Shown here piece after piece: positions 975 to 2,063 of a stretch of DNA of 6,935 bases. Positions within the stretch are counted from its first letter, which is position 1. The number at the start of each line of letters is the position of its first letter. The notes beneath the pieces were generated by a model that saw only the letters and a list, made by a program, of their open reading frames with translations, searched no databases and was not told the DNA's origin. Origin of the DNA: Solirubrobacteraceae bacterium. GTDB lineage: Bacteria > Actinomycetota > Thermoleophilia > Solirubrobacterales > Solirubrobacteraceae. A program made the translations under genes and the position numbers. The stretch spans positions 1 to 6,935 of the forward strand of contig JAICUS010000327.1 in the NCBI GenBank assembly GCA_025935735.1. Direction: 5' to 3'.

Positions 975-2063
975 CTAGGACTCCTTCGGGGTGAGCGTGA
1001 TGGTCAAATGCGAGGTGCGCTTGCGGATCCGCGTCGCGCGTCCCATGGCGCGCGGGCGGAACCGCTTGAGGGTCGGGCCCTCGTCGGCGTGGACTTCGAG
1101 GATGCGCAGCTCCTCGCCCACGAGCTCGTGGTTGTGCTCGGCGTTGGCCACGGCGGACTCGAGCAGCTTGCTCCACGCCTTGGCCGCGCCGCGCGGGGTG
1201 AACGCGAGGATGGCCCGCGCCTCGTTGACGTCCTTGCCGCGGATGTGGTCGCACACCAGCCGCGCCTTGCGGGCCGACGTGCGCACGTACTTGGCCTGCG
1301 CGCGGACGGTCACCCCGACCGGCACGGGCTTGCGGCCCCGGCGCTGCGGCGCGGGCGCCGGCTCCTCGGGCTCCTTGGCTCCCCGGCGGCGGCGCGAGCG
1401 CTTGGCGGACTCGACGGCCTCCTCCGCGGCCTCCTCGGCCTGGTCGGCGGCCTGCTCGGCCTCGCGCGCCTTGCGCGCGCGGGAGCGCTTCGGCGCCTTC
1501 GCGGCGGCCTCCGCGGCCTCCTCGGCCTTCTCCGCGAGCTCCTCGGCCTCGGCGGCGGCGCCCTCGGCGGTCGGCGTGTGCACCTCCTCGGCGGCCGCGG
1601 CGGCCTCGTCGGCCGCGGCAGCAGCCCGGGCGGCCTCGGCATCCGCGCGCTCCTGCTGATCGGCCGGCTCCTCGGCCACCGCCTCGGCGGGCGGCTCTTC
1701 GTCAGCGGCCTCCGCGGCCACCGCGTCGCCCGCGCCGCCCGTGATCTCTTCGTCGTCGCCCGTTGCCGCGGGGTCGTCGTCGCCCGGCGCGGCCTGCGGC
1801 TCCTCGTCGCCCGCGGCAGCGAGCGCATCGGCGGCGGCCTTGTCGACGCCGGTCGTCTCGGCAGCGGTGCCTTCGGCGGAGGGCGTGCCGCCCTCGGAGG
1901 GTGTGGGCTCCGGCTGCTCGGCCGACTTGCGCGCTCCTGTCTCGCTTCGCTCGCCACCGCGGCCGACTTCGTCGGCGCTCGCCTGCTTCGCCTCGGCGGC
2001 GTCCTCGGGCGAGGTGTCGCCGGGCTTGCCCTGCTGCGGGTTCTCGGGATTCTTCGGGCTCAT
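975..2063 (-). CDS. rplV: 50S ribosomal protein L22 with 250-residue N-terminal extension
   Basis: L22 is an early-assembly 50S protein. Its globular domain sits on the solvent side near the tunnel exit, and its long beta-hairpin lines the peptide exit tunnel (macrolide region). The conserved core is residues 251-362, from VTVRAQAKYVRTSARKARLV to the C-terminus, with the hairpin segment KRFRPRAMGRATRIRKRTSH at about 333-352. That core matches the usual family size of about 110 residues. Residues 1-250 are an extra, probably disordered or helical region with about 71 Ala and 61 Asp/Glu. The ATG at 2061-2063 overlaps the rpsS stop as ATGA and has AAGGG 9 nt upstream, which favours translation of the whole frame. 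In-frame GTG codons at 1325 and 1313, just before the core, could start a short form but lack a good ribosome binding site. Core identity is certain; the function of the extension is unknown. Confidence 0.96.
   Translation of the reverse strand: MSPKNPENPQQGKPGDTSPEDAAEAKQASADEVGRGGERSETGARKSAEQPEPTPSEGGTPSAEGTAAETTGVDKAAADALAAAGDEEPQAAPGDDDPAATGDDEEITGGAGDAVAAEAADEEPPAEAVAEEPADQQERADAEAARAAAAADEAAAAAEEVHTPTAEGAAAEAEELAEKAEEAAEAAAKAPKRSRARKAREAEQAADQAEEAAEEAVESAKRSRRRRGAKEPEEPAPAPQRRGRKPVPVGVTVRAQAKYVRTSARKARLVCDHIRGKDVNEARAILAFTPRGAAKAWSKLLESAVANAEHNHELVGEELRILEVHADEGPTLKRFRPRAMGRATRIRKRTSHLTITLTPKES
981..986 (-). promoter_or_regulatory. Ribosome binding site of rpsC
   Basis: The minus strand reads AAGGAG here, 11 nt upstream of the rpsC ATG and inside the last codons of rplV. 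It is one of the clearest Shine-Dalgarno matches in the window and supports the chosen S3 start. Confidence 0.75.
1314..2063 (-). other. N-terminal extension of L22: acidic, Ala-rich, with basic blocks
   Basis: Residues 1-250 of the L22 frame. Residues 1-70 are polar (Pro/Ser/Glu/Gly/Thr). Residues 71-190 are strongly acidic and Ala-rich, with few Lys/Arg and likely helical stretches such as the Ala/Glu run around 141-160. Residues 191-245 alternate helix-prone Ala/Glu segments with basic blocks at 191-200, 221-230 and 241-245. There is no Cys, Trp, Phe or Tyr in this region, no signal peptide and no membrane segment. G+C and codon style match the neighbours, so nothing suggests recent foreign insertion. 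I recognise no domain. Confidence 0.85.
1383..1550 (-). repeat. Tandem 29-residue duplication inside the L22 extension
   Basis: L22 residues 172-198 (positions 1470-1550) align without gaps to residues 201-227 (positions 1383-1463), with 16 of 27 identical by my hand count. Each unit is an Ala/Glu helix-like stretch containing AEEAAE followed by a basic KRSR block. The offset is 29 residues. It is seen at protein level; the DNA copies have diverged, so the duplication is not recent. Confidence 0.7.

Follow-up and report, generated by a model that had tools for sequence, protein, structure and literature searches.

A long N-terminal extension of ribosomal protein uL22 in Solirubrobacter and its relatives

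Why would a bacterial ribosomal protein carry an N-terminal extension twice the size of its own conserved core? The question is raised by rplV, the gene for uL22 (ribosomal protein L22), in contig JAICUS010000327.1 of a soil bacterium of the Solirubrobacteraceae, the whole 6,935 nucleotides of which are called the window here. An original prediction, made from the letters of this DNA alone, had described 250 residues with 71 Ala and 61 Asp or Glu ahead of a complete L22 core, and we reproduce these counts. The claim that an extension of this size is unusual is likewise upheld, as no bacterial chain among the solved uL22 sequences listed (60/62 distinct ones) has more than 23 residues ahead of its matched core, compared to 250 in the window. 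The gene and its parts are as follows, in window coordinates.

975..2063, minus strand: rplV, complete uL22 frame of 362 amino acids plus stop, with an ATG start (list of open reading frames and profile matches)
2060..2332, minus strand: rpsS (uS19), whose stop shares 4 nucleotides (nt) with the rplV start
978..1313, minus strand: conserved uL22 core, residues 251-362 (profile match and composition)
1314..2063, minus strand: N-terminal extension, residues 1-250 (composition and the ratio of nonsynonymous to synonymous differences, pN/pS)
1665..2063, minus strand: distal part, residues 1-133, net acidic and mostly disordered by prediction (alignment gaps and predicted structure)
1380..1664, minus strand: helical module, residues 134-228, a predicted three-helix bundle (heptad alanines, near-absence of indels and predicted structure)
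1392..1614, minus strand: imperfect 87-nt tandem repeat within the module, in two overlapping arrays, 1392-1551 and 1421-1614
1314..1379, minus strand: linker, residues 229-250, rich in Pro, Lys and Arg, with low predicted confidence (composition and predicted structure)
1932..1982, minus strand: 17-residue insert ASADEVGRGGERSETGA, residues 28-44 (comparison with relatives)

Translation and occurrence of the extension

Judged by its codons, the extension evolves as protein, read from the start that overlaps rpsS. Six pairs drawn from four Solirubrobacter loci (L001, L003, L004 and L006) give pN/pS values of 0.40 for the distal part (157 codon pairs), 0.39 for the module, 0.41 for the linker (69 codon pairs) and 0.15 for the core, and the module codons of the same pairs yield 1.68 and 1.69 when read in the two shifted frames. 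This difference between the real and shifted frames bears out the earlier expectation that the extension is probably translated. Within the extension, six loci have a third-position G+C of 0.85-0.96.

Long extensions are also the rule among the closest relatives of the window. Extension length was measured in 299 of 302 loci (no start was available for L046, L206 and L249), and four more loci lacked the L2, S19 and L22 columns needed for placement, which left 295 on a midpoint-rooted tree. The branch that holds the window clade is labelled 62, a weak support; within it, an extension is present in 63 of 66 rows, or 53 of 56 distinct genes once genomes present twice under different loci are merged, and spans 50-252 residues. 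The window has the longest extension of all measured loci (252 residues when counted to the profile start; the next has 221), and the longest among the 128 L22 proteins of a protein search is 223. Extensions of at least 50 residues occur in 52/79 genome-contig loci, which were chosen by likeness to the window core, in 27/136 loci of a class-wide sample, and in none of 82 further phylum genomes examined, a non-random set made up of the 30 best matches and 52 chosen by hand among the listed rows of 243 matching genomes. The trait needs seven changes on the tree. No relative of the full window protein was found in viral contigs.

The original prediction had asked whether such extensions are commonplace and already described. 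They are commonplace within the window clade, but the open-access literature, which covers few subscription journals, yielded no description of the uL22 N-terminal extension of this lineage. The available text of a Thermoleophilia marker study mentions S10 and not L22 (PMC6544083). A 253-residue protein of Solirubrobacter deserti (P0100) bears the database name 50S ribosomal protein L22, and the long form is thus already annotated.

Extensions occur as well in 15 tree rows outside the window clade, some of them with basic repeats. In six loci of another lineage (L053, L059, L060, L062, L160 and L163), N-terminal uL22 extensions of 106-119 residues consist largely of Lys, Ala and Pro in PAKKPAAKK-like stretches, with net charges of +9 to +16, and by their position on the tree these have a separate origin. 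One record titled Bifidobacterium breve (L007, CAMCUD010000005.1) falls on the tree into a group of Solirubrobacterales that includes Svornostia abyssi, and its L22 bears the extension seen in them; the record is probably mislabelled.

The frame itself matches PF00237 (Ribosomal_L22) at residues 255-357 with 127.1 bits against a cut-off of 28, and scores 136.1 for TIGR01044, whose curated cut-off is 73.65. Its score for PRK12279, a fusion of L22 with an unknown domain, is 85 bits, below the cut-off of 526. The order of the S10 operon is kept, with rpsS upstream of rplV and the S3 (rpsC) frame downstream. Among named relatives, Solirubrobacter soli has the most similar core (113 residues compared, 93% identity), and the tree, built from L2, S19 and L22 core columns, places the window among Solirubrobacter rows. 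An Rfam scan of the window gave no match.

The predicted overlap between the rplV ATG and the rpsS stop is confirmed at 4 nt. The ribosome binding site proposed with it is present but weak, to judge from the bases ahead of the ATG (CAAGGGCAAGGTGCG). At the 56 clade starts, the match to AAGGAGGTGA reaches 4 nt in 25 genes, 5 nt in five and 6 nt in two, while 24 have no match of at least 4 nt. The start codon is ATG in 52/56 distinct genes, and the 4-nt overlap with rpsS recurs in 30/56. Translation of rplV may well be coupled to that of rpsS.

Charge pattern along the extension

The window extension was first noted for its acidity, and this description holds for the whole but not for all of its parts. 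Residues 1-250 include 29 Lys or Arg, have a pI of 4.33 and carry a net charge of -32.7 at pH 7.4, whereas residues 191-250 are net +5.9. Across 53 distinct clade extensions, net charge ranges from -36 to +29, with 37 negative and 16 zero or positive, and the sign changes nine times on the tree. Because 16 of the 53 are neutral or positive, the view of acidity as a working feature of the extension is not supported, and on these comparisons acidity is not its conserved trait.

The residues next to the core behave differently. The 40 residues adjoining it are net positive in 44/53 extensions, whereas 2000 rounds of shuffling each extension produce a basic base in a mean of 14.7/53 and a maximum of 23/53. 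The distal part is negative in 41/53 and positive in 10/53, and a negative distal part is combined with a basic base in 34/53.

The predicted helical module and the distal part

Modelled alone, residues 134-228 are predicted to form three packed helices with a predicted local distance difference test (pLDDT) score of 92 and a predicted template modeling (pTM) score of 0.80. In the best heptad register, Ala, Leu or Val occupy 88%, 100% and 64% of the a and d positions of helices 1-3. The segment is nearly free of indels in Solirubrobacter and its alanines are heptad-spaced, although conservation at residues 135-141 is inflated because the 93 module proteins compared were chosen by a motif at the module start. 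Residues 134-228 thus look like a folded three-helix module, and since they do, the proposal that the extension is a plain acidic tether is not supported by the predicted structure. With Ala at heptad a and d positions and a predicted three-helix bundle, the module resembles alanine-packed antiparallel helices (Alacoil); it differs in having no sequence relative in Pfam, where searches with the module and with the distal part matched no family.

The best match of the module among solved sequences is a designed coiled coil (expectation value, E, 0.042), Foldseek with the module alone gave nothing at or below an E of 0.001, and VIA-align matched it to helical bundles and designs, a likeness of shape only. 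With the whole model, uL22 chains are among the best 50 Foldseek matches listed. We also considered that the module had been borrowed as a domain from elsewhere. A search with residues 130-232, in which candidates were limited to 0.55-1.75 times the length, found 153 proteins, and we reject this origin, as all 120 listed relatives carry PF00237 and are L22. Among 99 genomes of the class, the module was found in one, that of S. soli, in a search that scored at most 50 candidates per genome and could have missed others.

The distal part is far less regular, with a mean gap fraction of 0.71 in the alignment of relatives. It includes the insert ASADEVGRGGERSETGA, which is absent from proteins P0001 and P0002 and whose DNA holds a perfect hairpin, GCCGAC-GAA-GTCGGC. 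In-frame dispersed palindromic repeats with many genome copies have been described for Rickettsia. A dispersed DNA repeat of this kind is not supported for the insert by the relatives' genomes searched, in which no copies were found (0/61, 0/396 and 0/7 over three sets). SADEVGR peptides occur at differing positions within residues 14-50 of six L22 relatives (P0008, P0013, P0044, P0067, P0122 and P0123). A search with residues 1-134 found nine proteins, eight of them L22. The ninth (P0121), on a metagenome contig of 1089 bases, has the first part of the extension linked with a tRNA-editing domain (PF04073); we regard it as either a chimeric assembly or a rare fusion and leave it out of account.

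Possible roles of the extended uL22

Long tails on ribosomal proteins are known in kind, on uL22 notably at the C-terminus, as in mycobacteria and mycoplasmas. Related lineages in our survey (L054, L061, L297, L121, L131 and others) have C-terminal uL22 tails of 100-185 residues instead, which are likewise long and of low complexity but stand at the opposite end. When N-terminal tails are counted from at least 50 residues and C-terminal tails from at least 30 after the core, 70 of 280 distinct uL22 genes have only the former, 55 only the latter, none both and 155 neither. We claim no rule that the two exclude each other, because they need just seven and nine changes on the tree, in few clades, and a paired test has no power.

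Shorter N-terminal extensions offer a guide to placement. The uL22 of Cutibacterium acnes (8crx) shares an actinobacterial N-terminal extension, which the available text of its report places among helices H2, H24 and H46 and the tip of H19 of 23S rRNA, and has a C-terminal extension that points toward solvent (PMC10085706). It differs from the window protein in having 21 residues before the match, a 43-residue C-terminal extension and no helical module. Chloroplast and plant mitochondrial uL22 are also enlarged at the N-terminus, with 66 residues before the match in 28jw_S and 79 and 93 in 9evs and 6xyw. The solved-sequence matches include no sequence link between organellar uL22 (spinach chloroplast; available text of PMC5071890) and the window extension.

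Two other proteins of the lineage are similarly enlarged, with examples at these positions.

84812-85372 of the S. soli contig (C1): uS17 with N-terminal extension (locus L227)
1-351 of the window, minus strand: Gly/Arg-rich C-terminal tail of uS3, extending past the window edge

All 15 clade loci in which the uS17 core was found have an N-terminal extension of 70-176 residues, with an acidic tip and a basic base, the last 40 residues of the extension being net +6 to +11. Outside the clade, nine of ten loci have 11-28 residues and the other (L064) has 112. The uS3 frame is closed in 19 clade loci, and 16 of these have a Gly/Arg-rich tail of 82-199 residues. The remaining three comprise a locus containing a run of N, a broken one and one without the motif that we used. 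Of 47 clade rows, the window among them, 28 reach the end of their sequence with the S3 frame still open, and in 26 of these the frame has passed the S3 core motif; the GC-rich tail repeat seems to break assemblies. By eye, S19, L2, L4 and others of the same cluster look ordinary. Since uS17 and uS3 carry long tails too, the lineage appears to add tails to several ribosomal proteins.

The reading we prefer, which we regard as plausible if slightly short of probable, is that the extension is an appendage of the large subunit, with its basic base on rRNA and, in Solirubrobacter, a tethered bundle whose role is that of a spacer or weak docking surface and not of a charge shield. Translation from the start overlapping rpsS would yield uL22 with its long extension, and the core would assemble as usual. 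By analogy with short actinobacterial extensions, the basic base may lie on 23S rRNA at H2, H24, H46 and the tip of H19, and the remainder would project into solvent from the outer face of the 50S subunit, perhaps near the exit tunnel, as the original prediction had also supposed. In Solirubrobacter, the bundle would be an accessory module on a flexible linker, and our best guess is a spacer or weak docking surface near the nascent-chain side. Both extension and module are considered accessory because three clade genes have no extension and some Solirubrobacter relatives have no module. A bolder version, in which a three-helix bundle was born within the low-complexity extension as an extra folded domain and is held by the basic linker on the outer 50S face near the nascent-chain side as a genus-specific docking platform, strikes us as unlikely.

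The extension might instead reflect mostly neutral growth, in which GC-rich, Ala-coding repeats expand at a tolerant, solvent-exposed terminus and are translated to no specific use. The wide range of lengths and charges within one clade, the nine changes of sign, pN/pS values two to three times that of the core, the tandem repeats, the loss of the extension in three clade genes and the long tails of uS17 and uS3 all agree with such growth. Against it stand the basic base kept in 44/53, a module without indels whose heptad alanines are invariant, and the presence of an extension in 53/56 distinct clade genes; on balance we consider neutral growth somewhat unlikely, yet a serious competitor to an rRNA-anchored appendage.

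Two further explanations fare worse. An acidic distal part could serve as a built-in chaperone or shield that screens the basic core before assembly, as the original prediction proposed for free L22, and the contrast between a window extension of net -32.7 and a core of pI 10.9, the mostly negative distal parts and the acidic tip on uS17 would fit. The sign of the charge is not kept in the clade, however: whole extensions are zero or positive in 16/53 and distal parts positive in 10/53, some relatives have Lys-rich repeats instead (L044 and L047), and a shield is therefore improbable. It is more improbable still that ribosomes carry a short core, either because the extension is made and then removed or because a second, short uL22 is translated from an internal start. 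The window gene does have in-frame GTG codons at residues 247 and 251, and 37/56 clade genes have some ATG, GTG or TTG between -15 and +3 relative to the core (ATG in six). Neither window GTG has a Shine-Dalgarno (SD)-like match, though, and the near-core start codon is missing in 19/56 and accompanied by an SD match of at least 5 nt in only 2/56. These figures do not support a short start conserved across the clade, while for the window gene taken by itself an internal GTG may yet be used.

Ribosomal protein tails specific to a lineage are known, but a bacterial uL22 extension twice the size of the core, present clade-wide and with an apparent separate domain in one genus, would offer a natural case for asking how new parts are added to a universal machine. 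Close relatives form a graded series, from no extension through short and long disordered forms to a long form with the module, and this series would allow tail function, the emergence of a domain out of low-complexity sequence and neutral growth to be distinguished.
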